Part shown: piece by piece, positions 1 to 20,295 of the stretch
Position numbering within the stretch: position 1 is the first letter of the stretch
Layout: each line of letters begins with the position of its first letter
Source: Verrucomicrobia bacterium UBA3214
Lineage (GTDB): Bacteria > Verrucomicrobiota > Kiritimatiellia > RFP12 > UBA1067
Length of the DNA: 20,348 nucleotides
Assembly (NCBI GenBank): GCA_002363575.1
Contig: DEWI01000025.1
Location: 1-20,348 of the forward strand
Direction of reading: 5' to 3'
Position numbers and translations under genes: made by a program
Notes under the pieces: generated by a model
Seen by the model: the letters and a program-made list of their open reading frames with translations, nothing else
What the model was told of the DNA's origin: nothing
Databases searched by the model: none

Positions 1-672
1 ATGAAGAAGGAGCGTATCGCGGCGCATCTCGTGATCGACCGCAAGGAGCCGTCCGGCACGGCGCTCATACTCGTCGATGCGAAAGGGCAGAACGTGATTT
101 CCGTTGCGCTTGGCGCGAACGGCACGCTTTCCCCGGAGGACGTCGCGCCTTTCAAGGGCGAGATCGAGGGCGCGGCCGCGCTGCTGATGCAGCTGGAGAC
201 GCCGGTGGAAACGGTGGCGTGGGCGGCGAAGGTAGCGCATGGCGCAGGCGTTCGCGTGATTCTCAATCCCGCACCCGCGGCAAAGCTCCCGAAGACGCTC
301 TACCCGCTCGTCGATTGGATCACGCCAAACGAAACGGAGGCTGAAATCCTCACCGGCGTGAAAGTCGCCGACGCCGACGGCGCCGCCAAGGCGACGGAAA
401 TCCTGATGAAGCGCGGCGTGAAGCATGTAATCATCACGATGGGAACGAAAGGCTGCTGGTGCGGGGACTGCGGAAAACTCTTCCCGGCCAGAAAGGTGAA
501 GGCGGTGGATTGCGTCGCCGCAGGCGATACGTTCAACGGCGCGTTCGCCGTCGCGCTCGTCGAGGGCAGGGCGTGCGCGGAGGCGATAGACTTCGCGCAG
601 AAGGCCGCCGCCATCGCCGTCACGCGGCCAGGCGCGCAATCGTCCGTCCCATGGCGCAAGGAGGTGAAATAA
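1..672 (+). CDS. rbsK: Ribokinase (PfkB family), 5'-truncated by window edge
   Basis: Phosphorylates ribose to ribose 5-phosphate with ATP in the cytoplasm. The 223 visible residues match the C-terminal three quarters of RbsK. Landmarks are the LLMQLETP stretch, NPAPA, the substrate/nucleotide-lid region ITPNETEAE, and the anion-hole/catalytic motif AAGDTFNGAF with the catalytic Asp at about residue 176 of the fragment. The end, GAQSSVPWRKEV, is also typical of RbsK. Family members are about 300 residues, so roughly 80-90 N-terminal residues lie upstream, and the ATG at base 1 is probably internal. The stop overlaps the next gene's start (TAATG), indicating translational coupling to the permease-hydrolase gene. 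Another PfkB sugar kinase is possible, but the match to ribokinase is close. Confidence 0.93.
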   Translation: MKKERIAAHLVIDRKEPSGTALILVDAKGQNVISVALGANGTLSPEDVAPFKGEIEGAAALLMQLETPVETVAWAAKVAHGAGVRVILNPAPAAKLPKTLYPLVDWITPNETEAEILTGVKVADADGAAKATEILMKRGVKHVIITMGTKGCWCGDCGKLFPARKVKAVDCVAAGDTFNGAFAVALVEGRACAEAIDFAQKAAAIAVTRPGAQSSVPWRKEVK

Positions 673-2765
673 TGTATTTCTGCGACAACTATCTTCTCGC
701 CGTCGTCTTTTGCGTCGTCACGATGTTCTGCTGGGGCAGCTGGGGCAACACCCAGAAGCTCGCCGGCAAGACGTGGCGCTACGAGCTTTTCTACTGGGAT
801 TACGTAATCGGCGTCGTCCTCTTCGCGCTCGCGAGCGGCCTGACGGCCGGTTCGTGCGGCGGCGGCGCGTGGAGCTTTCTCGCGAATCTGAAGCAGGCGT
901 CCGCCGCGAATCTCGGCTCTGCCTTCCTGGGCGGGATCGTGTTCAACGCCGCGAACATCCTCCTGGCGGCGGCGATTTCCATAGCCGGCATGAGCGTCGC
1001 ATTCCCTGTGGGCATAGGCCTCGCGCTCGTCCTTGGCGTGGTGGTGAACTGGTTCGGCGCGCCGAAGGGCGAGCCGGCGCTGCTCTTCGGCGGCGTGGCG
1101 CTTATCGCGCTCGCCATACTCTGCAATGCGTTCGCGTACCGCCTGAAGGCGAAAGCCGCCGGCGGCGCCAAAGGCGCGGATGGGGCGAGGACCGTCGGCA
1201 AGGGGATTGCGCTAAGCGTGGTCTGCGGCGTATTGATGGCGTTCTTCTACCGCTTCGTGGCGCGGACGATGGACATGGATTTCGCTGCGGCCGCTCCGCA
1301 GGCCGGCATGATGACGCCGTATTCGGCGTTCTTCGTATTCGCGCTGGGCATCTTCGCCTCCAACTTCGTTTTCAATGCCGTCGCCATGCGCCATCCCGCG
1401 AGCGGCGAGCCGATCACGGAGCGCGAATATTTCAAAGGCGGCTTCGCCATCCATCTCGTCGGCGTGCTGGGCGGTCTCGTCTGGGGACTGGGCAACGGCA
1501 TCAATCTCGTCGCGGCCGGCAAGGCCGGCGCGGCGATTTCCTACGGGCTGGGTCAGGGCGCGACGCTCGTATCCGCGCTCTGGGGCATACTCGTCTGGAA
1601 GGAATTCAAAGGCGCGCCGCGCAAGGCGGGAATGCTCAATCTTGCGATGTTCGTTCTCTTCCTCGCAGGCCTCGGCGCGATTATCGCCGCCGGCGAATCG
1701 AAGGCGTCCGCGAAGGCGCCGGTCAAGGTGGTTTTCGATACGGACATGATCACGGATTTCGACGACGTGGGCGCGCTCGCCTGCCTCCACGCGCTCGCGG
1801 ACGCAGGCGAATGCGAGATCCTCGCGACCGTCAGCTGCACGCGCGGCAACGCTTCCGTCGGCGCGATCGAAATAATCAACCGCTACTACGGGCGGCCGGG
1901 CATCCCGGTCGGTTGCGCAAAGGAAATCGGCGTCGTCGGCGCGTACGCCGGCGCAAAGGAGAAGGTCGATCCCGCTTTGCCGCTCGGCGAAAAGCGCGGC
2001 AACGACGGCGGACACTACAAATACCGCAAGCTGCTTCTCGACTATCCCGGATGGTTCAGATACGCCGATTCCGACGATGCCCCGGACGCGAACGAAGTCT
2101 ATCGCCGCGTCCTCGCCGCGCAGCCGGACGGCAGCGTCGTCGTCTGCTCCGTCGGCTTCCTGACAAATCTGAGGCGGCTTCTCGAGACGCCGCCGGACGA
2201 GATTTCGCCGCTGGACGGCAAGGCGCTTGTCGCGAAGAAGGTCAAGCGCTGGGTCGCAATGGCCTGCAAGTATCCGGCGGGCAAGGAGTACAATGCGAAG
2301 TGGGACCCCGAGTCGTCGCGCATCGTGCTCGAGAATTGGCCTTCGCCTGTCGTCTTCACCGATTTCGAGTACGGCAGGGACTGCTTCGCAGGGCGTGCAA
2401 CGGCCGAATCCGGCGCGAAGGGCAACCCTGTCGCGGACGTGTTCGCCGGCAACATTCCGTCCCGCGAGGATATAGGGAAGGATCCGGCGCATTGGTTGCG
2501 CAAGGCTTTCGGCATGGGCGGCCGCGCCGCTTGGGACGAGACGGCGGTGCTGATCGCCGTGCGCGGCACGGACGGGTATTTCAACGTCGAACGCGGCACG
2601 TACCGCATGGTCGGCGACGACGGCTCGGACGAATGGGCGCCAGACGCCGTGGGTGGCCGGCATCTGCGCGTGACGGAGAAACTTGCGAAAGCCGAAGTCG
2701 CCCGCATCATCGATGAATTGATGCTGCGCCCGCCGGCGTGCGCCGCCGCGCAAGTGCGCCGGTGA
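672..2765 (+). CDS. Fusion: ten-TM sugar/ribose permease + nucleoside hydrolase
   Basis: A 697-residue two-part protein. Residues about 1-345 form a DMT/GRP-type sugar permease: ten hydrophobic segments (about 7-25, 39-60, 75-98, 100-123, 130-153, 175-198, 212-238, 258-283, 286-309, 320-343) and the N-terminal signature CWGSWGNTQKLAGKTWRYE. Residues about 352-697 form an inosine-uridine nucleoside hydrolase: the calcium/ribose-binding Asp cluster DTDMITDFDD (Asp356, 358, 362, 364, 365) and a C-terminal WDETAVL motif matching the last metal-binding Asp. The start at 672 is chosen because it overlaps the ribokinase stop and begins just before the first helix; an in-frame upstream extension to 459 would lie inside ribokinase. 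Known from Bacteroides: kinase, hydrolase and permease are separate genes of the ribose-utilisation (rus) locus. Inference: here two of them are fused for nucleoside salvage. An even helix number with a cytoplasmic N-terminus would place the hydrolase in the cytoplasm. Confidence 0.88.
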   Translation: MYFCDNYLLAVVFCVVTMFCWGSWGNTQKLAGKTWRYELFYWDYVIGVVLFALASGLTAGSCGGGAWSFLANLKQASAANLGSAFLGGIVFNAANILLAAAISIAGMSVAFPVGIGLALVLGVVVNWFGAPKGEPALLFGGVALIALAILCNAFAYRLKAKAAGGAKGADGARTVGKGIALSVVCGVLMAFFYRFVARTMDMDFAAAAPQAGMMTPYSAFFVFALGIFASNFVFNAVAMRHPASGEPITEREYFKGGFAIHLVGVLGGLVWGLGNGINLVAAGKAGAAISYGLGQGATLVSALWGILVWKEFKGAPRKAGMLNLAMFVLFLAGLGAIIAAGESKASAKAPVKVVFDTDMITDFDDVGALACLHALADAGECEILATVSCTRGNASVGAIEIINRYYGRPGIPVGCAKEIGVVGAYAGAKEKVDPALPLGEKRGNDGGHYKYRKLLLDYPGWFRYADSDDAPDANEVYRRVLAAQPDGSVVVCSVGFLTNLRRLLETPPDEISPLDGKALVAKKVKRWVAMACKYPAGKEYNAKWDPESSRIVLENWPSPVVFTDFEYGRDCFAGRATAESGAKGNPVADVFAGNIPSREDIGKDPAHWLRKAFGMGGRAAWDETAVLIAVRGTDGYFNVERGTYRMVGDDGSDEWAPDAVGGRHLRVTEKLAKAEVARIIDELMLRPPACAAAQVRR

Positions 2766-3063: not shown

Positions 3064-6000
3064 ATGAAAATGCGTTCCCTCTCGCACACTCACCTCCCCT
3101 CCAATCAAACATGCTGCCGGCCTGTACGGGCGGTATTGCAAACTGAACTGAAAGGGAAAGCGATTGCCGCGATTGCCGCGCTGCTGTGCTTCGGCACGGC
3201 GACGGCATTGGCCGACAGCATAAACCTATCGGAGATGACGGCGAATACGACCGTCGCCGACGGCACGACGCTGACGGGCACGCTCGGCGCGAACGTCAAG
3301 GTTTCCATCGCCGACGGCGCGACGGTGACGCTCGACGGCGTCACCATCAACGGCGATAATGACGAAGACTGCGGGTGGGCGGGCATCACCTGCGAGGGCG
3401 GCGCGACCATCGTTCTCGAAGGCACGAACACCGTCAAGGGCTTCTACGAGAATTATCCCGGCATCTACGTGCCGGAGGGCAAGACGCTGACCATCAAGGG
3501 TGACGGCTCGCTCGATGCGTCGAGCAACGGCTACGGCGCGGGCATCGGCGGCGGGTACGATATTTCGTGCGGCAACATCGTCATCGAGGGCGGCACCATC
3601 GTCGCGACGGGCGGCTACCTTGCGACCGGCATCGGCGGCGGCGGCAATGTTTCGTGCGGCGCCATCACGATAGCAGATACCGTGACGAAGGTCGTCGCCA
3701 CAAAGTACGAGCAGAATACGCCTCGCAGCATCGGCAGTGGCGCTGGCGGCACTTGCGGCACGGTGACGATCGGCGGCACGGTGTATGCCAACGGCATTGA
3801 AGAAAGCCCCTACATCTATCCTACCTACACCGCGACCTTGAAGGACGGCACGGAGGATGCCGCCAACTGGACCATCACCCCCAACGAGGGACTGGCGGAG
3901 AAAGGCACGGTTACCATCGCCTACGCCGGAGAGAACAAGGTGAAGAGCGTCAAGGCCGTTGCGATACCGTTGACGCTCTCCGCCGCCACGGCGGCCGATG
4001 TCGGCAAGGTGGTGTGCGCCGACGGCCATCTGCACGACGCGAAGACCGCCGTGCCCGACGGCTGCACCGCAGTCGGCATTCTCGGCAAGGTGACGGAGAA
4101 GGGCCACGGCCTGATTCTCGCTTTGCAGAACGCTTCGTCGCAGACATGGAACACCATCAACGGCTGGACGTCCACGACCGGTTACGCCGGCACCACGCTG
4201 AAAGTTCTGCCCGACGATGCCGCACGCGGCGCCAACCTGACGAGCTACACCACGCTGGGCGATACCCCCGTGTCGGACTGGGCCGTGGGGCAGAAGAGCG
4301 ACTACGAAGCGATATTCATCAATCTCGGCTCGACGACTGGTGATAGTGAAGGCACTATATACGACGGCAATGTGAATGTCTATATCACTACAGGTGTCGG
4401 CGGTACGGCAATATCTGGCGACAATTGGTCTGCTACGGATATCTATGGCAACTACGCACGGGGCTTCTCCAGTGATTATTGGCACAGCTACGTTAAGTTG
4501 TATACCTATAGTGTCCGGCCAGTGCTCGGCTTCGGAGGCGAGGCGACGGAAGAAATCACCGTCACGCCCGTCGAGGGCAAGCCGAACGAATGGACGTTCC
4601 AGATGCCCGACGGGGACGTGGAGGTGGAAGTCGCCTACCTCGCGGTCGCCACGTTCGAAGTCGAAGGCGAGACCTACGCGGTGATTACGAATGTCGTCGG
4701 CAAGGCGGTCGAGACGCCGGAAGAAGACCCGGTGAAGACCGGTCACACGTTCGCCGGCTGGTTCACGGCGGCGACGGGCGGCACGCAGGTAACGGACGAA
4801 ACATTGATGGGCATCGCCGACACGACGTTCTACGCGCAGTTCCGCGCGCCTATCCTGACGATTGAAAACGGCGTTCTCACAGCCGTCGATTTCAACGACT
4901 GCACTGACATTGATCTGGTGATACCGACCAACGTCACGGCAATCGGCGATAGTGCGTTCTATCAATGCACGGGTCTTGCAAGCGTGACGATTCCCGGAAG
5001 CGTCAAGACGATCTCGCATGCCGCGTTCCGCGATTGCTCCAATCTAACGAGCGTGACGATCGAGGAAGGCGTGACGACAATCGGCGAACGTGCGTTCGCC
5101 CGCTGCGTCAATCTGGCAAGCATAACCATTCCTGGCACCGTCACGGAGATCAGTGAAGCCGCATTCAGCGATTGCAAGAGCCTTACGAGTTTGACGATTC
5201 CCGGCAGCGTCAAGACGATCGGACCCCAGGCGTTCCAGAACTGCACCGGACTCGAGAGCGTGACGCTCGAAGAGGGAGTGGAGACAATCGGAAGAGTCGC
5301 GTTCGACGGCTGCGAAAATCTCTCAAGCGTAACCATCCCGGACTCCGTCAAGGAAATCGGAGATGATGCGTTCGCGGGTTGCAGCGACGCCCTCTACGAA
5401 GAAGGGTCGGGGAATCTCGCCGGCGTGAAGCTGGTGGATGGCTGGGCCGTCGGCTATGATGCCGGCTCCATCTCCGAAAACCTCGACTTGACCGGCGTTC
5501 GCGGCATCGCCGGCGGCGCATTCGCCGGATGCGACGTCATTACGAGCGTAATCATCCCGGACGGGGTGGCGACAATCCCCGAATACGTATTCAACGGTTG
5601 CGACAATTTGACGAGCGTGACCATCCCGGATAGCGTCACGTCGATAGGGGAAGGTGCGTTCGCCGGTTGCGACAATCTTGCAAGCGTGACCATCCCGGAC
5701 AGCGTCACGTCAATCGGCAAAGATGCATTCGAGGGTTGCAGCGAAGACCTCTACGACACCACGACGATCCCCGGCGTGGCGCTGGTTGACGGCTGGGCTG
5801 TTGGCTATACCGACGCGCTTCCTGAAAACCTCGATCTGACCGGTGCGCGCGGCATAGCGAGCATGGCGTTCCGGGATAGTGCGCTCGAAAGCGTGACCAT
5901 CCCCGGCACCGTGGCGAGGGTTCCCGCCGGCGCGTTTATGTCCTGCTCCAGCCTAGCGAGCGTGACGCTCGAGGAAGGCGTGACTGCGATCGACGACTCC

Positions 6001-8511
6001 GCGTTCATCGAGTGCTCTGCGCTCGAGAGCGTGGAAATCCCCGACACGGTGACGGCGATCGGGCCTCAGGCGTTTGTGTCGTGCGCGAAACTTGCGAGCG
6101 TAACGGTTCCCGGCAGCGTGGCGGAAATCGGACCGGCGGCGTTTGGCATGTGCAACAGCCTGACGAACGTCACTCTCGAAGCTGGCGTAACGAATATCGG
6201 CATGATGGCGTTCGCCATGTGCTCCGCGCTTGAGAGCGTGGAAATCCCCGACACCGTGACGGCAATCGGATCCCAGGCGTTCTTTATGAGCATGAACTTT
6301 GCGAGCGTGACGATCCCGTCGTCCGTTATGGAAATCGGGCAGGACGCGTTTGCCTACACGGCGCTGGCCACGGTCAAAGTGTCATACGGCGACGGCGAGC
6401 GCGTGAAGGAAATGCTCGCCGCCTCGGGCTTTGACGTCTCCAAGCTGACGTTCGTCGAGCCGTACAAGCTGACGTTCGATCCGGCCGGCGGCGAGTTTGC
6501 CGAGGGCGTCGAGACGAACCGCTTCCTGTATGCGGGCGAAGAATTCGGCGAACTGCTCGAAGCGACCCGCACAGGCTACACGCTCGCGGGCTGGTTCACG
6601 GCGGCGACGAACGGTTATGAAGTCGCGGCGACAAACAAGATGGGCGATGCGGACGCCACCGTTTACGCGCAGTGGACCATCAACCAGTACACCATCACAT
6701 TCGACTCCAACGGCGGCAGCGACGTCGCCGCGATAACGAACGACTACGGCACCGCGGTGACGGCACCGGCGGATCCGGCGAAGACCGGCTACACGTTCGC
6801 GGGCTGGACGCCTGCGGTGCCGGAGACGGTTCCCGCGTCCAACTTGGTTTGCACCGCCGGATGGACCGTCAACCAGTATAAGATCGCGTTCGACGCCAAC
6901 GGCGGTGAAGGGGAGCTCGACCCGGCGACGCTCGACTACGGCGCGGAGTACGGCGAACTGCCCGTGCCCGTCCGCACAGGCTACACGTTCCTCGGCTGGT
7001 TCGACGGGAACGGCAACGAGGCGACGGCGGAAACCGTCCTCGGCGATGCCGACGTCGCGCTCGCTGCCCGGTGGGGAATCAACCGCTACACGATAACGTT
7101 CGTCGTGGGAGGCGAGACGTATGCGGCGATCACGAACGACTACGGCGCAGAAGTTGCGGCGCCGGCGGATCCCGATCGCGGCAGCATGTACCAGTTCCTC
7201 GGCTGGGACGCCGAAGTGCCGGCGACCGTACCGGCGGAGGACGTTACGCTCACGGCGCTCTGGAAGCTGATGCAGATCGACGTTCCGTCGATCGTCGGCG
7301 GCGACACGAACACGACCGTCAATGTCACGGTCGGCGAGAAGTACACCGACGCAGTGATTGCGCAGATCACCAAGCAGGCCCAGGCTACGGCTGAGCGCCA
7401 TGGCCAGGTCGTGGCCGGCTGGACCAATTACGACGGCAGCGAAGTCACCGGCGCGACGGTCGTTTCGACGAACGACGTTCTCACGGCGGTTTGGGAAGAG
7501 GTCAATCCTCTCGTTCCCGAGACGCTGGGTGAGGGCGCGGTCGATACCTCCAAGGCGCAGAAGTTCGAGGCCTACATCCTCGATGCCGAAGGCGCGACGC
7601 GCGGCACGGCCGTCGTGACGGTCGGCAAGAGCAACGCGCGCACCGGCCTTTCGTCCGTCAAGGCGCAGGTCAAGCTGGTCGGCGATTCGAAGTCCTACGT
7701 GTTCAAGGCCACGGAGGCGAAGGGCGGCAAGGCCAAGCTCTCCACCGACAAGGCCACGGAAGGCGTCGAACTTTCCAACAAGCTCCTTGGCACGATGACG
7801 CTCGATATCGGCGCGGAAGGCGTGACCGGCAAGTGGGGCGAGTACGAGATCAACGGCTCGCGCAACACCTACAAGACCGACAAGACCGCATATGCGTCGT
7901 GGACTGGCGTATGGACGGCAGCGATAGCTGACGCCTCCGGCGCGCTCTCCACGTTCACGCTCAACGTGAAGAAGTCCGGCGCCGTCAGAGTCACCGGCGT
8001 ATTGGCCGACGGCGCGAAGTTCTCCGTCTCCACCCGTCTGATGATTGCGGATGACGGCTCCGAAGCTTGCGTCGCCGTCAAGGGCACGAAGAAAGCCACC
8101 GTCGGCCTCGTGTTCTGGCTTGGTCTGGATGAGAATGACGAGGTCTATGCCGAGGACGTGGAATCCGTGTCCGGCGACGCCGTCGCCGGCGAAACCGTCG
8201 CGGTCGGCAAGGCCGCTGTCGGCGATGCCGCGACGCGGAATCTCGCCGTCGGCGGCGAGACGGTCGCTTCCATCGAATGGGACGGCGCGCGTTTCGCCGC
8301 AGACAAGTCCGTCGCCGCCAACGTCAAATACGTCAAATCGACAGGCGCCTTCACCGGCTCCTACAAGATCGTGACGGCAAATGCGAACGGCAAGACGAAG
8401 AAGACGACCGTCAAGTTCACCGGCGTGTTCGTCGATGGCGTCGGCTACGGCATGACGAAGGGCGACGGTGCAAAGCCCGTCCTTCTCACCCCGGCGCTGC
8501 TGGCCGAGTAA
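3064..8511 (+). CDS. Secreted modular surface protein: beta-helix, lectin-like, BspA LRR, InlB B-repeats
   Basis: 1815 residues. GAGG lies seven bases before ATG 3064. An unusually long n-region (about 30 residues) precedes the hydrophobic core AIAAIAALLCFGTATALA, with predicted cleavage before Asp-Ser. Modules: about 52-245, Gly/Thr-rich right-handed beta-helix resembling Cthe_2159-type carbohydrate-binding domains; about 310-490, C-type-lectin-like domain (AVGILGKV... HGLILAL... SVRPVLGF) related to the Fibrobacter major paralogous/DUF1566 group; about 528-594, one InlB B-repeat (KTGHTFAGWF); about 598-1130, roughly 19 BspA/LRR_5 units of 23 residues with two LVDGWAVGY interruptions; 1135-1400, four InlB B-repeats; about 1401-1480, a degenerate B-repeat; 1480-1815, a duplicated beta-rich C-terminal module ending TGSYK... 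KFTGVFVDGVGYGM. Such repeats usually mediate binding to hosts, glycans or other cells. I see no LPXTG, PEP-CTERM or autotransporter barrel, so anchoring is unknown. Confidence 0.85.
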   Translation: MKMRSLSHTHLPSNQTCCRPVRAVLQTELKGKAIAAIAALLCFGTATALADSINLSEMTANTTVADGTTLTGTLGANVKVSIADGATVTLDGVTINGDNDEDCGWAGITCEGGATIVLEGTNTVKGFYENYPGIYVPEGKTLTIKGDGSLDASSNGYGAGIGGGYDISCGNIVIEGGTIVATGGYLATGIGGGGNVSCGAITIADTVTKVVATKYEQNTPRSIGSGAGGTCGTVTIGGTVYANGIEESPYIYPTYTATLKDGTEDAANWTITPNEGLAEKGTVTIAYAGENKVKSVKAVAIPLTLSAATAADVGKVVCADGHLHDAKTAVPDGCTAVGILGKVTEKGHGLILALQNASSQTWNTINGWTSTTGYAGTTLKVLPDDAARGANLTSYTTLGDTPVSDWAVGQKSDYEAIFINLGSTTGDSEGTIYDGNVNVYITTGVGGTAISGDNWSATDIYGNYARGFSSDYWHSYVKLYTYSVRPVLGFGGEATEEITVTPVEGKPNEWTFQMPDGDVEVEVAYLAVATFEVEGETYAVITNVVGKAVETPEEDPVKTGHTFAGWFTAATGGTQVTDETLMGIADTTFYAQFRAPILTIENGVLTAVDFNDCTDIDLVIPTNVTAIGDSAFYQCTGLASVTIPGSVKTISHAAFRDCSNLTSVTIEEGVTTIGERAFARCVNLASITIPGTVTEISEAAFSDCKSLTSLTIPGSVKTIGPQAFQNCTGLESVTLEEGVETIGRVAFDGCENLSSVTIPDSVKEIGDDAFAGCSDALYEEGSGNLAGVKLVDGWAVGYDAGSISENLDLTGVRGIAGGAFAGCDVITSVIIPDGVATIPEYVFNGCDNLTSVTIPDSVTSIGEGAFAGCDNLASVTIPDSVTSIGKDAFEGCSEDLYDTTTIPGVALVDGWAVGYTDALPENLDLTGARGIASMAFRDSALESVTIPGTVARVPAGAFMSCSSLASVTLEEGVTAIDDSAFIECSALESVEIPDTVTAIGPQAFVSCAKLASVTVPGSVAEIGPAAFGMCNSLTNVTLEAGVTNIGMMAFAMCSALESVEIPDTVTAIGSQAFFMSMNFASVTIPSSVMEIGQDAFAYTALATVKVSYGDGERVKEMLAASGFDVSKLTFVEPYKLTFDPAGGEFAEGVETNRFLYAGEEFGELLEATRTGYTLAGWFTAATNGYEVAATNKMGDADATVYAQWTINQYTITFDSNGGSDVAAITNDYGTAVTAPADPAKTGYTFAGWTPAVPETVPASNLVCTAGWTVNQYKIAFDANGGEGELDPATLDYGAEYGELPVPVRTGYTFLGWFDGNGNEATAETVLGDADVALAARWGINRYTITFVVGGETYAAITNDYGAEVAAPADPDRGSMYQFLGWDAEVPATVPAEDVTLTALWKLMQIDVPSIVGGDTNTTVNVTVGEKYTDAVIAQITKQAQATAERHGQVVAGWTNYDGSEVTGATVVSTNDVLTAVWEEVNPLVPETLGEGAVDTSKAQKFEAYILDAEGATRGTAVVTVGKSNARTGLSSVKAQVKLVGDSKSYVFKATEAKGGKAKLSTDKATEGVELSNKLLGTMTLDIGAEGVTGKWGEYEINGSRNTYKTDKTAYASWTGVWTAAIADASGALSTFTLNVKKSGAVRVTGVLADGAKFSVSTRLMIADDGSEACVAVKGTKKATVGLVFWLGLDENDEVYAEDVESVSGDAVAGETVAVGKAAVGDAATRNLAVGGETVASIEWDGARFAADKSVAANVKYVKSTGAFTGSYKIVTANANGKTKKTTVKFTGVFVDGVGYGMTKGDGAKPVLLTPALLAE
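4000..4533 (+). other. C-type-lectin-like (DUF1566/fib_succ_major-like) domain with codon-use shift
   Basis: Encodes residues about 313-490 of the BspA-like protein. It has the order of landmarks seen in that domain group: a 'value from user' strand AVGILGKV, HGLILALQNAS, a W-N-T stretch, a DWAVGQKSDYEAIF stretch in place of the usual W-LPS, then SGDNWSATDIYGNYARGF and the closing SVRPVLGF. Bases about 4320-4515 use A/T-ending codons (GAT, TAT, AGT, ACA) far more than the flanking sequence. Domain assignment is by motif order, not by search. Confidence 0.55.
5596..5733 (+). repeat. Near-identical 69-bp tandem units inside the BspA repeats
   Basis: The 23-residue leucine-rich units starting at GGTTGCGACAAT (5596 and 5665) are nearly identical at the DNA level, including CATCCCGGA(C/T)AGCGTCACGTC. 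Other units in the same protein are much more diverged, so this pair is a recent in-frame duplication. It is a candidate site for length variation by slippage or recombination. Confidence 0.8.
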
Positions 8512-9525: not shown

Positions 9526-10185
9526 ATGAAACGGATCGGAATAATCGGCGCGGGGAGGTTCGGGCTGGCGCTCGCGGAGTCGCTCGCCAACGCCGGCCTC
9601 GAAGTCGTCCTCATAGACCGCAACCGCCCGGCGATGCAGAATGCGAGCGAATTCGTCAACGCCATGCAGGGCGACGCGACGCAGCCGCACGTTCTCGAGG
9701 AAGCCGGCTTCGGCGAGTGCGATCTCGTGGTCGTGGCGATAGGCTCGAACATCGAAGCTTCGACGATGGCGACGGCCAACTGCAAAGAGCTTGGCGTCCC
9801 CAACGTAGTGGCGAAAGCCGCCAGCGAACTCCACGGCAAGATACTGCGGAAAATCGGCGCGGACACCGTCGTGTATCCAGACCGCGATTCGGCGCACCGC
9901 CTCGCGCGCACGATCGCCAAGGGCGACATACTCGATATCCTCGAAGTCTCCGAAGGCTTTTCCATCGCGGAAATCGACGTCCCCGACGGCATGCGCGGCA
10001 AGACGCTCGCAGGCGCCGATTTCCGCAACGCCACCGGCCTTACGGTGCTTTGCATACGCCGCGCGGATCCCGCCGACCCGCTGAAGCCGCGCAACGTGGT
10101 GCTGCCGCATGCCGACGACGTGCTGCTGGGCGACGACAAGCTCATCGTCTTTGGCGAAACGAAGAAGCTGGATACGGTCGATTAG
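9526..10185 (+). CDS. KtrA/TrkA-type RCK regulatory subunit of potassium uptake
   Basis: 219 residues, the full length of KtrA-type proteins: an N-terminal RCK_N Rossmann domain and a C-terminal RCK_C domain (about 135-215). The nucleotide-binding loop is GIIGAGRFG (about residues 5-13), with an acidic residue at the end of strand 2 (VVLIDRN) that favours NAD(H). The conserved GDAT and the LVVVAIG strand follow. In the family this peripheral cytoplasmic ring gates a TrkH/KtrB potassium channel in response to nucleotides; no such membrane subunit is in the window. GGAGAG lies about eight bases before ATG. The 25-base gap from the ABC ATPase suggests a shared transcript. TrkA proper is twice as long with two RCK units, so KtrA is the better model. 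Confidence 0.9.
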   Translation: MKRIGIIGAGRFGLALAESLANAGLEVVLIDRNRPAMQNASEFVNAMQGDATQPHVLEEAGFGECDLVVVAIGSNIEASTMATANCKELGVPNVVAKAASELHGKILRKIGADTVVYPDRDSAHRLARTIAKGDILDILEVSEGFSIAEIDVPDGMRGKTLAGADFRNATGLTVLCIRRADPADPLKPRNVVLPHADDVLLGDDKLIVFGETKKLDTVD

Positions 10186-10224: not shown

Positions 10225-11514
10225 ATGAGTTATTTGAAGATAGACGGGATGCGCACCGTGCATGGCGTGCACGCGATCTCCGGCAACAAGAACGCGGTCT
10301 TGCCGATGATCGCCGCGTCGCTTTTGACCGACGAGCCCGTGACGCTTTCCAACGTCCCGGACATCGCCGACGTCGATGTCATGCTCGGGGCGATCGCGCG
10401 GACGTTCGGGGCTTCCGTGAGCCGCGACAGGCGCGCAGGCGTCGTGACGCTGCATACGAGCCATATCAAGTCGGCGCGCCTTGGCGCGGCGACGGCGGCG
10501 AAGCTCCGCACGAGCTTCCTCTTCGCCGGCCCGCTGCTCGCGCGCGCCGGCCGCGTCTCGCTGCCGCCGCCCGGCGGCGACGCCATCGGGCACCGCCGCC
10601 TCGACACGCACTTCGCGGGCTTCCGCGCGCTCGGCGCAAGAGCGACGGCAGGACGCAAGACGCTGCATTTGCGCGGCGAGCTGAAGGGCGCGAAGATCCT
10701 GCTCGACGAAGCGAGCGTCACTGCCACGGAGAACATCCTCATGGCCAGCGTGATGGCCAAGGGCGAGACCACGATCTACAACGCCGCATCCGAGCCGCAT
10801 ATCGCCGATCTCGCCGCGATGCTGAATTCGATGGGCGCGAAGGTTTCCGGCGCCGGCACGAATCTCATCCGGGTGGAAGGGGTTGAAAAGCTCTCCGGGA
10901 CGTCCGTGCGCGTCGGCTGCGACTATATCGAGGCCGGCTCGTATATCGCCGCCGCCGCCGTGACGCACGGCGAATTGACGCTGGAGAATATCGATCCGGA
11001 GCCTTTCGCCGTCCTCGAAGGGGCGTTCAAGCGCTTCGGCGTCACGTGGACGATCGACGCGAAGGAGCGCAAGCTCTACTACGTTCCCAGGAAGAAGCGC
11101 CTCAAGATGCACTACGATCTCGGCGACGCGATCCCCAGCCTCGCCGACGGCCCGTGGCCCGCCTTCCCGTCCGACCTGATGAGCATATTGATCGTGCTGG
11201 CGACGCAGACGCGCGGCACGTGCCTCTTCTTCGAGAAGATGTTCGAGTCGCGCCTGTATTTCGTCGACAGCCTGCGGCAGATGGGTGCGAAGATCGTGCA
11301 GTGCGATCCGCACCGCGTCGTCGTCACCGGGCCGAGCCAGCTGTACGGCGGCGATTTCGCGTCTCCCGACATCCGCGCGGGGATCGCGCTCGTGATCGCC
11401 GCGCTTGCGGCGCGCGGCACTTCGCGGATTCTCGACGCCGAAATCATCGACCGCGGATACGTGGCGGTGGAGCGCGAGCTTTCCGCGCTCGGCGCGGCGA
11501 TCGAACGCTGCTGA
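10225..11514 (+). CDS. murA: UDP-GlcNAc 1-carboxyvinyltransferase (MurA-like) with Asp in place of catalytic Cys
   Basis: 429 residues (E. coli MurA has 419), EPSP-synthase fold. It transfers enolpyruvate from PEP to UDP-N-acetylglucosamine, the first committed step of peptidoglycan synthesis, in the cytoplasm. Conserved features: Lys22-Asn23 in GNKNAVLPMIAASLL, the RTSFLFAGPLLAR strand, the DYIEAGSYIAAAAV segment, the catalytic general-base Asp in PWPAFPSD (Asp317), and RAGIALVIAALAARG near the end. The PEP-loop reads PGGDAIG where most MurA have PGGCxIG: Asp119 replaces the Cys that fosfomycin alkylates. Asp at this place is known in Mycobacterium and Chlamydia and gives intrinsic fosfomycin resistance. 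Several other stretches (KKRLKMHYDLGD) are divergent, so a second MurA paralogue elsewhere is possible. A GGGGG run lies 12 bases before ATG, a weak ribosome site. Confidence 0.88.
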   Translation: MSYLKIDGMRTVHGVHAISGNKNAVLPMIAASLLTDEPVTLSNVPDIADVDVMLGAIARTFGASVSRDRRAGVVTLHTSHIKSARLGAATAAKLRTSFLFAGPLLARAGRVSLPPPGGDAIGHRRLDTHFAGFRALGARATAGRKTLHLRGELKGAKILLDEASVTATENILMASVMAKGETTIYNAASEPHIADLAAMLNSMGAKVSGAGTNLIRVEGVEKLSGTSVRVGCDYIEAGSYIAAAAVTHGELTLENIDPEPFAVLEGAFKRFGVTWTIDAKERKLYYVPRKKRLKMHYDLGDAIPSLADGPWPAFPSDLMSILIVLATQTRGTCLFFEKMFESRLYFVDSLRQMGAKIVQCDPHRVVVTGPSQLYGGDFASPDIRAGIALVIAALAARGTSRILDAEIIDRGYVAVERELSALGAAIERC

Positions 11515-11601: not shown

Positions 11602-13677
11602 ATGTTCGATACCAGCTTGAAGACATACGGAGAGGATGTATTCTCCGAGCGCGAGATGCGCGCGCATCTCCCCAAAGACGTCGCGGCGAAGTTGATCGCG
11701 ACGATGCGAGAATCCCGCTCGCTAGATCCGTCCATCGCCGATGCCGTCGCGCACGGCATGAAGGAGTGGGCGCTTTCGCGCGGCGCCACCCACTTCACCC
11801 ACTGGTTCCAGCCCATGACGGGCGGGACCGCGGAAAAGCACGACGCCTTCCTCGAGCCGGCCGGCATTGCGCAGGCCGTCCAGAAATTCAGCGGCCGCAA
11901 TCTGATCGGCGGCGAGACGGACGCCTCCAGCTTCCCGTCCGGAGGCCTGCGCTCCACTTTCGAGGCGCGCGGCTACACCGCGTGGGATCCGACAAGCCCG
12001 GCGTTCATCAAGCGCCACTCCAACGGCGCCACGCTCTGCATCCCGACGGCCTTCTGCTCCTACACCGGCGAAGCGCTCGACATGAAGACGCCGCTCCTGC
12101 GCAGCATGCAGGCCGTGGCGCGCGCAACGTCGCGCTTGATGGAGAAGTTCGGCCGCGAGCCTTCGCACGTGACGATAACGCTCGGCGCGGAGCAGGAATA
12201 TTTCCTCATCGACCGCTCGTTCTACTTGAAGCGCCCCGATCTCCTGCAGACGGGCAGGACGGTGTTCGGCGCGGCGCCCGCAAAGCACCAGCAGCTCGAC
12301 GACCACTACTTCGGCGCGATACGCCCGCGCGTGCTGAAGTTCATGACGGAAGTGGAAGAGCGCCTGTGGGCGCTCGGCATCCCCGCCAAGACCCGCCACA
12401 ACGAAGTCGCGCCCGCGCAGTTCGAGCTGGCCCCGATGTTCGAAGACCAGAATCTCGCCGTCGATCACAACATGCTCGTGATGGAGACGCTGCGCCAGAC
12501 CGCGGAAGCCCACGGCCTCGTCTGCCTCCTGCATGAAAAGCCTTTCGAGGGCGTGAACGGCAGCGGCAAGCATTGCAACTGGTCGATCGCCTACGGAGAC
12601 AAGAATCTGCTTTCGCCGGGCGACAATCCGCGCGACAACGCCATCTTCCTGACTTTCCTCTCCGCCGTGATCCGCGCCATCGATCTCCATGCGGACATGC
12701 TGCGCTTCTCCACCGCGGGCGCCGGCAACGACCACCGCCTGGGCGCGAACGAAGCGCCGCCGGCCATAATCTCGATTTTCCTTGGCGACGAGCTTTCCTC
12801 GGTGATGCGCGAGATCGAGACGGGCGAAAAGCAGGAAGGCGCCCACAGAGACCGCGCTTCCGCAATGAAAGTCGGCGTCGATACGCTGCCTCCGCTGCCG
12901 CGCGATACGACCGACCGCAACAGGACGAGCCCGTTCGCCTTCACGGGAAACAAATTCGAATTCCGCGCCCCCGGCTCTTCGCAGAACTGCGCCGCCAGCC
13001 AGACCGTCCTCAACACCATCGTGGCCGAATCGCTCGACGCGATATGCGACAAGCTGGAAAAGCGCGGCGGAGATTTCAATTCCGAGCTCCAGCTTCTCCT
13101 CCAGCGCCTCATCAAGAAGCACAAGCGCGTGCTCTTCTCCGGCGACGGCTACGGCGATGAATGGCCCAGGGAGGCGGCGCGCCGCGGCCTCCCCAATCTC
13201 CGCGACACGCCGGCGGCCATCGCGCCTCTCGACGATCCCGCGAACCGCGAGCTCTTCTCGCGCTACGGCGTGCTGAGCGCCAGCGAAATGTCCAGCCGCC
13301 GCGAAATCGCCTCCGCCGACTACGCCAGCCGCATATTGATCGAAGGCAAGGTCGCGCTCGAAATCGCGCGCTCCATGATCCGCCCCGTCGTGGCCGACGA
13401 ATTCAGCCGCCTCGCCACCGCGATAGGGCAGGCCAAGCGCGACGGCCTGAAGGTCGGGCTGCGCGGCCTCGGCGCGCTTTCGCAGAAGCTCGGCGCCGGC
13501 CTCGACGATCTCCACGTCAAATGCGAGCGCCTCGACAAGGCGATCGCCAAAGGGGAGCCTGCCGCCATCCGCAAGACGATGGACGCCCTGCGCAACACCG
13601 TCGATCGCCTCGAACTGCTCGTCGATGACGGCAAATGGCCGCTCCCGAAGTACCGCCAGATGCTATTCGTATATTGA
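11602..13677 (+). CDS. glnN: Glutamine synthetase type III
   Basis: 691 residues, the size class of GSIII (about 690-730) rather than GSI (about 470). Makes glutamine from glutamate, ammonia and ATP in the cytoplasm. The N-terminal GSIII-specific part includes THWFQPMTGGTAEKHDAF and the GGETDASSFPSGG segment. Catalytic-core landmarks are GAEQEYFLIDR (about 195-205), KTRHNEVAPAQFE, the GSGKHCNWSI loop (His324) and NDHRLGANEAPPAIIS. The C-terminal helical region (RSMIRPVVADEFSRLA) is specific to type III. GAGG sits five bases before ATG 11602. GSIII is common in Bacteroidota, some cyanobacteria and PVC bacteria. The gap from the MurA-like gene is 87 bases without a recognisable promoter or terminator, so co-transcription is possible but unproven. 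Confidence 0.96.
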   Translation: MFDTSLKTYGEDVFSEREMRAHLPKDVAAKLIATMRESRSLDPSIADAVAHGMKEWALSRGATHFTHWFQPMTGGTAEKHDAFLEPAGIAQAVQKFSGRNLIGGETDASSFPSGGLRSTFEARGYTAWDPTSPAFIKRHSNGATLCIPTAFCSYTGEALDMKTPLLRSMQAVARATSRLMEKFGREPSHVTITLGAEQEYFLIDRSFYLKRPDLLQTGRTVFGAAPAKHQQLDDHYFGAIRPRVLKFMTEVEERLWALGIPAKTRHNEVAPAQFELAPMFEDQNLAVDHNMLVMETLRQTAEAHGLVCLLHEKPFEGVNGSGKHCNWSIAYGDKNLLSPGDNPRDNAIFLTFLSAVIRAIDLHADMLRFSTAGAGNDHRLGANEAPPAIISIFLGDELSSVMREIETGEKQEGAHRDRASAMKVGVDTLPPLPRDTTDRNRTSPFAFTGNKFEFRAPGSSQNCAASQTVLNTIVAESLDAICDKLEKRGGDFNSELQLLLQRLIKKHKRVLFSGDGYGDEWPREAARRGLPNLRDTPAAIAPLDDPANRELFSRYGVLSASEMSSRREIASADYASRILIEGKVALEIARSMIRPVVADEFSRLATAIGQAKRDGLKVGLRGLGALSQKLGAGLDDLHVKCERLDKAIAKGEPAAIRKTMDALRNTVDRLELLVDDGKWPLPKYRQMLFVY

Positions 13678-13722: not shown

Positions 13723-14256
13723 ATGACATTCGATGAAATCGTGAAGACGCGCCGCAGCGTGCGGCGCTACAAGAAGGATGTGCCCGCCGACGCGCTCGTC
13801 GATCAGGTCGTCGCCGCCGGTCTCGCCGCCCCGACGGGCCGCAAGCAGCAGTCCAGCGTGATCGTGCGCATCGAAGATCCCGCGCTGCGCGCGGAGATCG
13901 TCGCCGAGAATGCGCGCATCATGGGCGCGCCGCCTTCCCCGGACCGCGGTCCGGATCCTTTCTACGGCGCGCCGGTCATGCTGCTCGTCATCGCAGACAA
14001 ATCGAAATCCACCGCCGTTTACGACGGCTCCCTCGCGCTCGGCAACATGATGCTCAAGGCGCACGAACTCGGCCTCGCCAGCTGCTGGATCCACCGCGCC
14101 AGGGAGGAAATGGAAGGGCCGCTCGGCGCGAAGATTGTTTCGCGCCTCGGCCTCGAAGGCGAATGGATCGGCGTCGGCCATCTCGCGCTGGGCTATTGCG
14201 ACGGCCCGCTGCCGCCCGCCTACCCGATCCGCCAGGACCGCTACCGCACGCTCTGA
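13723..14256 (+). CDS. Nitroreductase-family FMN oxidoreductase
   Basis: 177 residues, a short single-domain member of the nitroreductase superfamily. These are homodimeric flavoproteins that use NAD(P)H to reduce nitro compounds, quinones or flavins. Visible signatures: the N-terminal phosphate-binding RRSVRRYKKD, the AAPTGRKQQ segment near the flavin, and the C-terminal LGLASCWIHRAREEMEG followed by GVGHLALGY. The physiological substrate cannot be read from sequence. It starts 45 bases after the glutamine synthetase stop; no good Shine-Dalgarno is within ten bases of the ATG, but the N-terminus MTFDEIVKTRRSVR is typical. Confidence 0.92.
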   Translation: MTFDEIVKTRRSVRRYKKDVPADALVDQVVAAGLAAPTGRKQQSSVIVRIEDPALRAEIVAENARIMGAPPSPDRGPDPFYGAPVMLLVIADKSKSTAVYDGSLALGNMMLKAHELGLASCWIHRAREEMEGPLGAKIVSRLGLEGEWIGVGHLALGYCDGPLPPAYPIRQDRYRTL

Positions 14257-14638: not shown

Positions 14639-14674
14639 GCTTGCCGCCAACCGACCATACGAGAGAAACAAACC

Positions 14675-14743
14675 ATGAAAACGAGAGAGACACGGGAGCG
14701 CTTCGCCGCTCCGCTTGCGACGCCACGCCGCGCCGCACTTTGA
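14675..14743 (+). other. Possible 22-codon leader ORF 2
   Basis: ATG-to-TGA frame encoding 22 residues beginning MKTRETRERFAAP. Its start context (GAGAGAAACAAACC-ATGAAAA) resembles that of the giant gene (AAGGATACACACC-ATGAAAA), so it may be a duplicated initiation region or a genuine leader peptide. It ends 22 bases before a strong hairpin, the usual geometry of translation-coupled leader control, but no regulatory residue bias is evident. Confidence 0.3.
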
Positions 14744-14764
14744 TCCTCGCAAGCCGGCACGCCA

Positions 14765-14791
14765 GGAGGGCGCGCATCACGCGCGCCCTCC
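14765..14791 (+). other. Leader hairpin 2, perfect 11-pair stem
   Basis: GGAGGGCGCGC (14765-14775) pairs perfectly with GCGCGCCCTCC (14781-14791) around an ATCAC loop. There is no T-run, so it is not an intrinsic terminator. It contains a GGAGG that would be hidden in the stem. It lies about 90 bases before the giant gene's start. Confidence 0.6.
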
Positions 14792-14883
14792 CGGACGCGC
14801 GCGCTTGCCTTCCGCCTCCCGCGGCTCTTCTCCAGCCTCACCCTTTTCGAAGATCGATAACACCAACAAAAAGGATACACACC

Positions 14884-17800
14884 ATGAAAAGAGCGATAGA
14901 AACTCTGTTTCGATTAGTTGCGCGCCCATCGCGCACCCTCGCACTACTCCTCGCCGCCTGCACAACGGTGTTAGGCCTAGGGGTATCCGCAGCCGATTAT
15001 ACAGGCACCGACTACGCGCCATGGTCCTATTCGGCGCGTTGCGTCGTCTGGCGCGCTACTTCCGGCCAGCTATTCCATAAAAGTACGATTGCTGATGTTG
15101 CTGCCGATGGCACAATCGGAAGCTCTTACGATTTGGACACAACAGGTCATCCATGGCAGGCGTTTGCAAGTAATGGCGGAAGCAACTACACCGCTCCGGG
15201 TCTGACGCTTGTATTTGATAAAGCAGGGTACAATGGCTCATCCGATGCCCAGTTTGCTCCGCTGTCGTTTGGCGGCCTCTGGGTCAAGGTGCTACAGGCC
15301 ACAGATACGCCCTATTGCATCACTGATAATAAGACCGATGGTACCACTCGCACAGTCGAACTTGGTGCTACAGGCGCATCAACGTACTTCAAGTTTGAAA
15401 AGTCGTTCACATTCGATCGTAACTCGCCAACGACGGTCAAAGGCACCGCGACAGTCGATATCGCTAGTGGAGCAACATTCACAATCAATGCTCGAGCCAA
15501 CAAGGGTGCCGTTGTCGAAAGCGGCAATACGCTTGTTCTTACCGGCTCGGGAACATTGGCCGTTGGCAGTGGCTTGACCGTTGGTGGCACGCTTGATATT
15601 TCTGCCGCAACTGTGCCGACCATCAACGGCGACGTGACGCTTTCCTCTGGAAGTACGCTCGTTCTCCCGTCCGGCACGGCGCTTAATGAAACGATTTCGA
15701 TCCCGCTTGCCACATCTGTGACGGCAGGCGGACTTATTTCGGTGAAAATCGGCAGCAACGATCCTGTTCTTGTTATGCCGACCTTTGAAAATGGCGCAAT
15801 TACCTTCCTTAATACCAACGTTGAATTTGTGTACCACAGCACCGATACTTATCCCACGACCATACCTGCCAATGGATGCATCTACATTTTCGAAGGCGGA
15901 GAGACGTCCGAAGCGGCCACAACGTTCACAGGCGTGACCGTGAACGGTACGCTCAAGACGCGCGGCTATGTCAACCTGACCGACTTCACGCTTAATGTCG
16001 GAGGAACGCACGAGGTCGTTTCCGAGACGACTACCGTGACGGCGGCATGGAATAGCTCACAAAATTATGGCTATGTGAGCGGCAATATAACAATTGATGC
16101 GGGTGCGACATATGCGGTTACGCAGACGGATACGATCAACTGGGCTAACAGCGGCGTCCAGACAATCAACATTTACGGTACGCTCGCGCTCGGAGAGCAT
16201 CGCTGGTCGATCATGGGTGTCGCCAACTGTGTCTTTAATCTCTATCCGGGTGCCCGCATCACCGGTACGGGTGATGCAAACGGCCTTCTCGATCTTTTCG
16301 CTACAACGAGCAAGTTGAATTGCTATGCCGGTAGCGCCGGCGGCGATATCTATGTCGAGGGACGGTTAAAGACGCGCAACGCCAATACACCGATTTGGGT
16401 TGCCGCAAACACGACGCTTCATCTTCAGGGCGGTCTGACCGGTGGCGGAGTCGCCAAATCCGGAGCCGGCACGCTTGCGCTTTCGGGCGCTATTGCCAGC
16501 ACGGTGGCAAATTCTTCCGTCACAGACGGCACGTTCGCTCTTGTCGATGCGACGGGGACGGCATTGCCGCTTACGGTCAATGCGAACAAGAGCGTGGCGG
16601 TCTCCGCTTCGTCAGGTGTTACGGTGCCGCTTAACGTGACGATGGCAGGCGGCTCGAGCATTACGGTTTCGGGAGCAGGAACGGTCAACGGCACGGTTGC
16701 GATGAATGCGCTTCCCGGCACGACAACCGATCTCACCGCCGCGTCTTGGGCAGGAACGGTCTCTCTCGCCGCGCTTTCTAATCCCGCAAATGTTTCTGTG
16801 CTCACGAAGTTGGGAAGTGCAAATTCTACGCTTGTCTTGAACGGCGTTTCATCGTCCGCCTACATTGCGGCATCGGGGAACACTACGTACACAATCGCCT
16901 GCCCCATTCGCCTTGACGGAGCGGTGGTGATCGACAACGGGTCAAGCGGCTCGACAATCAATCTCGGCAAGATTTTCGGTACGGGCAATCTGACAATCGC
17001 CGAGTGGAATGGATGCTCGTCGATTAGGTACAATCTCAATGCCGTAGATATTGATAATTACTCCGGCACATTGACACTCGCCAACAATAATTTGCGTGCA
17101 GCAGGCGGGACGATGACAATCGGCATCGGCAACCTCATCAAATCCAATGCCGCCGTGGGAAGCGTCATCCTTCCGATAACTACAACGGCTGTGGCAAATA
17201 CGACTGGGACGATTGCCTACAACTTCGATGACGGGAAGGTGAATGGAACGACAAAGGATCTTTGCGTTGATACCGTGAATGGTGTATTTGGCGTTTGCAT
17301 CGCAGCTGCCAGCTATTCCTCAACCAAGTATGCGACCGTGCAGGCGGCCATCGCCGCGGCGGAACAGGCGAGCCAGACTTACGCCGCCGTCACCATTCTC
17401 GACGCGACGGCCGAATGCCCGAATGAATACTACATCGACAACGGCACGCTGAAGAAGAAGCCCGCTTCCATAACTGTCGGCGAAAATGTCTATTATTACA
17501 CCACCATATCGGCGGCGGTGCAAGATACCCTTCCTGCGCCGCTTGGAACCCACTCCGACTACGACTATCTCACCATCTACGAAAGCAACGCGGCGGTGTC
17601 GATGATGGATTACACGCTCAAGATTGCCACCGCGCCCGGCGTGGAGGGTGTGAAGGTTTCTCTGCCGGCTGTATTTACTACTACCGAATACGCCGTTTCG
17701 TCTGCTTCAGGCGATACTTGTACGATTTATTCGGTTGCCGTGAATCCCAAGACCTATCGGTGGAAGAGTGCTGCGACTAGCTCGCTTTGGACGACCGCTT

Positions 17801-19868: not shown

Positions 19869-20295
19869 AATAAATATTGCGCCAACACCGTGGGTTCCGC
19901 ATGCTTCGCATGCTCTACCCCCGGCTATTCATGTGTCGCCCCATTCGGGGCTTTACGCTACACCACCGCGCGACCGAAAAAGCCCCGACGGGGTGGCACA
20001 TATATAGCCGGGGGGGTGAAGCGCGCAAAGCGCGCGCAACCCCCGGTATCGGCACAAAAGAGGATCGAACCCCGAAGGGGTGGCACAACGCCGGATGGGA
20101 TGCAGCGCAAAGCCCCGACGGGGCGGCACATTTATAGCCGGGGGTGAAGCGCGCAACGCGCGCGCAACCCCCGGTATCGGCACAAAAGAGGATCGAACCC
20201 CGAAGGGGTGGCACAATTGCCCTGGCGATATTGAAACGCTCGTTGTGACCCGTTGTGTCATCCCTTCGGGGTTTGATCGTTCTTCAAACGATTTC

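Follow-up and report, generated by a model that had tools for sequence, protein, structure and literature searches.

A conserved fusion of a DMT-fold permease to a nucleoside hydrolase next to ribokinase in the Kiritimatiellia, with the hydrolase most likely periplasmic

The ribose-utilization systems (RUS) of Bacteroidetes, reportedly described by Glowacki et al. in 2020, gather ribokinase, a permease and ribose-releasing hydrolases in one gene cluster. An operon of P. distasonis (L111) is of this kind and carries rbsK, an ADP-ribosylglycohydrolase, a nucleoside hydrolase and a GRP transporter in a row, with lipoprotein-like starts in both hydrolases. Bacteroidetes RUS are also mentioned in the excerpt of PMC11699363. 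Cleavage of a nucleoside in the periplasm is exemplified by Nuh of Pseudomonas aeruginosa, which splits adenosine to ribose and adenine and is not described as joined to a transporter (PMC5522865). The ureide permeases studied so far carry allantoin, uracil, xanthine and preQ bases, and the excerpts of PMC4158802 and PMC11130926 mention no attached hydrolase. A further related transporter belongs to the DHAP shunt of E. coli, where it is encoded by the fourth and last gene of the mtnK-mtnA-ald2 operon. This operon serves 5-deoxyribose, a ribose analogue, and is induced on it, the permease gene being co-induced; the function of the permease is termed unknown and the nucleosidase, Pfs, is encoded elsewhere (PMC12632272, in the excerpt available).

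The window, i.e. the whole stretch of DNA analysed (20,348 nucleotides), is a complete contig (C95) of the 74%-complete genome of Verrucomicrobia bacterium UBA3214. Ribokinase, permease and ribose-releasing hydrolase are found together at its positions 1-2765, as they are in the P. distasonis operon. Unlike in RUS, permease and hydrolase form a single protein, and the scan of the window genes revealed neither a regulator nor a second kinase; the flanks of the related locus L002 were read as ORFs. The features are as follows.

1..672, + strand: rbsK, 3' part of the ribokinase gene (223 aa; 5' end beyond the contig; PF00294, 162.4 bits)
672..2765, + strand: fused gene, permease + nucleoside hydrolase (NH) (697 aa; ATG at 672, stop ending at 2765)
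672..1697, + strand: permease domain (residues 1-342; ten transmembrane helices, DMT fold)
1140..1202, + strand: central loop after helix 5 (about residues 157-177; K/R-rich)
1620..1697, + strand: helix 10, the joint (residues 317-342; in unfused neighbours the stop codon comes next, ahead of the NH signal peptide)
1698..1721, + strand: linker (residues 343-350, eight residues)
1722..2744, + strand: NH domain (residues 351-691)
1737..1766, + strand: Asp cluster DTDMITDFDD (residues 356-365; in the alignment the counterpart of DTD..DD in solved hydrolases)
2292..2294, + strand: N541 in the KEYN motif (invariant Asn; EFN or EAN in the aligned solved enzymes)
2532..2537, + strand: W621-D622 (both invariant; D622 aligned with the active-site Asp found near the C-terminus in solved enzymes)

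The last A of the ribokinase TAA (frame 1-672) is also the A of the ATG of the fused gene, an overlap of one base. This overlap, the continuous frame of 697 codons and the ribokinase neighbour had all been proposed in the initial annotation and were borne out. The best NCBIfam model for the rbsK fragment is ribokinase NF008353, and its score of 277.9 bits falls below the cut-off of 341, probably because the gene is truncated by the contig start; a full-length copy is found at L002 3090-4001. A scan of the window against Rfam gave no match.

The permease half passes the family cut-offs of both PF07168 (ureide permease; 64.6 bits against 27) and PF06800 (sugar transport, DMT superfamily; 27.6 bits against 26.3), like GRP-type transporters. 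Membership of RhaT (TIGR00776) was rejected, the score being 38.7 bits against a cut-off of 319.6. An AlphaFold2 model of the fused protein (mean pLDDT 88.3) places ten membrane helices, the ninth broken in two, within residues 7-342, which is the ten-helix DMT fold of PF07168/PF06800 permeases. The ten hydrophobic segments of the initial annotation, for which fewer than eight helices had been named as the adverse outcome, are thus all accounted for. In fold comparison this half resembles LicB over its whole length, and also CMP-sialic-acid transporters. The hydrolase half matches PF01156 (50.9 bits against 34.2; residues 353-631) and adopts the NH fold from residue 351. D358, D362, D364, D365, N541 and D622, the residues characteristic of PF01156, are invariant in 49 fused rows, in agreement with the full NH domain and Asp cluster first noted. 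The roles of the aligned Asp cluster, Asn and C-terminal Asp are presumably those known from solved nucleoside hydrolases, and N541, by the same alignment, is taken by us to be part of the ribose site. W621 is aligned with the His which precedes the C-terminal Asp in the top solved match, 8qnd. Solved relatives were retrieved by profile and fold searches, which outdid single-sequence searches; the latter returned none for the fused protein (E up to 0.01) or for the permease P0130 (E up to 10).

The permease-NH fusion is real, conserved and recurrent. The same open frame occurs in P0001 (95% identical, a cluster of 36 sequences), in L002 and L004 and in genome G009 (L081), and the fusion is therefore not due to chance and hardly an assembly accident. 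Compared to L002, dN/dS is 0.014/0.18 (about 0.08) for the permease and 0.043/0.27 (about 0.16) for the NH domain, and both domains are under purifying selection. Within the genus the fused frame is present in four of 35 genomes (G000, G009, G018, G033), while permease and NH are separate neighbouring genes in at least eight. In a class-wide draw of 240 genomes, with at most four candidates per genome scored, a single match spanning both halves was found only in the genome of the window itself. That the stop codon was merely lost without functional meaning, or that the fused frames are metagenome frame errors, would fit the interleaving of fused and unfused neighbours within the genus, the single-contig support for some NH-first and deletion forms and a frameshift in the NH part of L009. 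Such an origin is nevertheless very unlikely in view of the identical frame in separate assemblies, the purifying selection on both domains, the clean loss of the signal peptide and the occurrence of several different hydrolases at the same place. A neutral origin of the fusion would, moreover, not exclude the topology proposed below.

The search for the two-domain architecture that the initial annotation had called for uncovered at least 66 permease-NH clusters among 166 protein clusters (the best 120 of 313 plus the best 120 of 276 matches). By a BLAST rule, 64 of the 166 listed clusters have the permease first and seven the NH first, and two missed by this rule (P0123 and P0125) join the permease to a further NH subfamily (PF01156 by precomputed domains); several NH subfamilies are represented in all. 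Other fusion partners of this permease are ADP-ribosylglycohydrolase (P0124, 48 member sequences; P0128, 10 contigs) and an Exo_endo_phos domain, the latter in a single cluster (P0134). P0127, P0129, P0138, P0140, P0146 and P0153, in which the permease is joined to something else, give the impression of frame errors or recombinants and were left out of the fusion count. In the permease tree, with 131 rows left of 159 once near-copies had been dropped, the fused label changes 19 times, at least 10 of these forced by starred branches, and in the NH tree (132 rows) 22 times, at least 17 of them so forced; these are quick trees with long branches, in which the stars deserve less trust, and the counts are blind to gain versus loss. 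The fusion seems, as the trees read, to have arisen several times in related bacteria. In the named Bacteroidota loci examined, the components are indeed encoded separately, as the initial annotation had stated for Bacteroides. A fused protein named Puia sp. exists, however, and 30 fused rows lie on the permease-tree branch which holds those loci. No description of a permease-NH fusion was found in the open-access literature searched.

In a separate observation, this NH subfamily is listed as joined to other domains in P0049, P0058, P0062, P0064, P0083, P0102, P0107-P0109 and P0112 (best 120 of 313 matches), with glycoside hydrolases, ADP-ribosylglycohydrolase, polysaccharide deacetylase, histidine-kinase and other domains as partners. 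It looks like a general secreted module of these bacteria, or the joined forms may partly be gene-calling chimeras.

The joint itself is informative. In the six unfused loci inspected, the permease stops straight after helix 10, its last residues being AGN, AGQ or AGH. The closest in-frame NH ATG that precedes a signal peptide is found 4, 4, 6, 19, 22 and 57 bases further downstream; alternative NH starts exist in L012 (TTG candidates overlapping the permease stop) and L006 (a nearer GTG). The fused form passes from AAGE through the linker to PVKVVFDTD with neither stop codon nor signal peptide, and the last helix of the permease takes the place of both. By a simple, home-made rule, a signal-peptide-like start is present in 45 of 48 separate NH frames (two negative, one unscored), some of which do not adjoin a permease and which include some species twice, and in only four of 70 ribokinase control frames. 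Among database proteins with the NH near the N-terminus, 26 of 29 look signal-peptide-bearing. As the fusion takes the place of a signal peptide and small residues lie near the joint (AAG, ASA), a signal peptidase might cut after helix 10, so that the protein would be a polyprotein releasing an untethered periplasmic hydrolase of the sidedness proposed below. We hold this to be unlikely, since the linker varies in sequence and length among fused relatives and is charged in many of them, and the only common motif seen, AG, also ends the unfused permeases.

The orientation of the permease was read from the charges of its loops, assigned from helices placed by hand on averaged hydropathy. With the N-terminus assumed to be outside, the mean number of K+R is 14.6 in putative inner against 3.7 in outer loops of fused permeases (49 rows) and 14.1 against 3.3 in unfused ones (57 rows), and the inner loops are the richer in all 49 fused and all 57 unfused sequences, i.e. 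106 of 106. The E. coli homologue has 13 K+R in inner loops and one in outer loops. The central loop after helix 5, with six K/R in the window protein and a mean of 4.57 in the 49 fused rows, is accordingly predicted to be cytoplasmic. An outside N-terminus and ten helices would leave the C-terminus, and with it the hydrolase, outside as well; this is the outcome of the topology prediction that the initial annotation had suggested. The charge bias, the export-like starts of the separate NH genes and the replacement of the signal peptide by helix 10 together indicate that the hydrolase domain is most likely periplasmic, outside the inner membrane.

Fusions with the NH first point the same way. 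P0037-P0040 have a lipoprotein-like signal at their start. As each is represented by a single sequence from a single contig and lies close to the unfused P. distasonis operon, some of them may be indel errors or strain variants. Shortened NH-first forms are found on four (P0070), one (P0073) and eight (P0076) contigs, 13 together. In P0071, P0074 and P0080 only one or two helices precede the hydrolase, an arrangement which, as the charges read, would still export it. These three retain scraps of ribokinase and permease (the rbsK start plus helix 10, or helix 1 plus helix 10), and look like operons collapsed by internal deletion with the hydrolase still exported.

CMP-sialic-acid transporters have cytosolic termini. 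This analogy would put the hydrolase inside and counts against the periplasmic reading. It favours the flow proposed in the initial annotation, in which whole nucleosides are imported and handed to the hydrolase, here taken to lie on the cytoplasmic face, and the ribose is passed to ribokinase. Ribokinase is indeed cytoplasmic, and the top Pfam family is known for bases and ureides. However, such a flow found no support and is unlikely: the charge bias of the permeases and the export-like starts of the separate NH genes, for which the cytoplasmic hydrolase was abandoned, speak against it, as do the lipoprotein-like signals of the NH-first forms. The gene neighbourhoods also argue against it. 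Among genome_contigs loci with a full permease, which were picked by similarity to the window protein, ribokinase shares the locus in at least 62 of 70, and in at least 37 of the 43 without an NH, both counts being lower bounds owing to contig ends. Ribokinase beside an NH-less permease is hard to explain for a nucleoside carrier.

The periplasmic arrangement can be combined with this ribokinase linkage into a scheme that we consider probable, in which a periplasmic NH and an inner-membrane pentose permease are coupled in one polypeptide and feed ribose to ribokinase. The permease would be inserted with both ends outside the inner membrane, helix 10 serving both to export the hydrolase and to anchor it. 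This enzyme would cut nucleosides (possibly purine nucleosides) in the periplasm, the ribose being released at the entrance of the attached permease and imported through it, and ribokinase from the overlapping upstream gene would trap it inside as ribose phosphate. The intact fusion, both folds, the active-site residues and the charge pattern are computed properties of the protein, as the export-like separate partners, the repeated fusion and the ribokinase linkage are of its relatives. From these we infer sidedness, ribose cargo, activity and any benefit of tethering. The probabilities attached to the alternatives discussed here overlap and, together with that of the preferred scheme, do not sum to one.

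The cargo deserves separate consideration, as the best Pfam match is ureide permease, a family with members carrying bases, and this counts against ribose. A periplasmic hydrolase might instead free a base of the purine or queuine type for import by the permease, with ribose as a by-product. In the excerpts available, one PF07168 protein carries preQ0/preQ1 and part of the family is encoded in clusters with queK-like hydrolase genes (PMC11130926), and plant members carry uracil and xanthine (PMC4158802). Base salvage is nonetheless quite improbable, given the linkage to ribokinase with or without an NH, the rbsK operon of P. distasonis and the position of the E. coli homologue among 5-deoxyribose genes; nor did the seven other frames scanned in the window include a queuosine-type gene (tgt, queK, qng1). 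The E. coli homologue is identical to the window permease at 155 of 333 positions and, unlike the window protein, lacks a hydrolase domain (335 codons with the stop). The family link suggests in turn that this DHAP-shunt permease may be an importer of 5-deoxyribose-type sugars. Its gene lies at L112 6001-7005 (E. coli DSM 30083), and a match is present in 1231 of 5426 E. coli genomes.

Other carriers were also sought. CNT nucleoside transporters were found in none of 58 genomes, and the window's own genome has neither a NupG-type symporter nor an RbsC-family ABC permease, gene absences which are weak evidence in a genome 74% complete. An RbsC-type permease is present in G004. A NupG-type symporter scores over cut-off in 13 of the 58 genomes, all in the genus and none among the four with the fusion, numbers too small for a conclusion (chance about 0.14). 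D-ribose pyranase (RbsD) was over cut-off in none of the 58 genomes, including all 35 of the genus, many of the 58 being incomplete, which limits the reading of this absence; the same search gave matches in five of 14 control genomes, including those of E. coli and B. subtilis. PF05025 (RbsD/FucU) matches in 33 of 58 genomes, 32 over cut-off, and the member present in each of the four fused genomes was rejected as RbsD, being an L-fucose mutarotase by NCBIfam. Ribose is mostly pyranose in solution, and ribokinase prefers the furanose (PMC5522865). The hydrolase would release ribose in the furanose form, and the tether, by handing it over at the permease mouth, might bring it to ribokinase before its conversion to pyranose, with no need of RbsD. 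This relay is put forward tentatively and is rather doubtful: the absence of RbsD permits such direct channelling without showing it, and does not track the fusion, as unfused relatives lack RbsD too.

Tethering a catabolic enzyme covalently to the outside of its own transporter would, if true, be a compact means of denying competitors the sugar, and such attachments, involving different ribose-releasing enzymes, seem to have evolved repeatedly. Bacterial permeases of this family often bear names taken from glucose uptake or from the ureide carriers of plants, and for them pentose import beside extracytoplasmic ribose release is a strong functional clue. The arrangement also makes the hand-over of substrate from enzyme to transporter directly testable within one protein.

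The remainder of the window encodes a 1815-aa BspA-type leucine-rich-repeat protein with Listeria-Bacteroides repeats (3064-8511; PF13306, PF09479), likely a surface protein, followed by a TrkA-type protein (9526-10185). An EPSP-synthase-fold enzyme (10225-11514), a type III glutamine synthetase (11602-13677) and a nitroreductase-family protein (13723-14256) lie in succession. A frame of 1671 aa (14641-19656) has no Pfam match at 1e-4, and its true start may be an internal ATG ahead of a signal-like stretch. Near the contig end a 128-base repeat is present in 1.8 copies, 95% alike (19979-20216), which may be why the assembly ended there.
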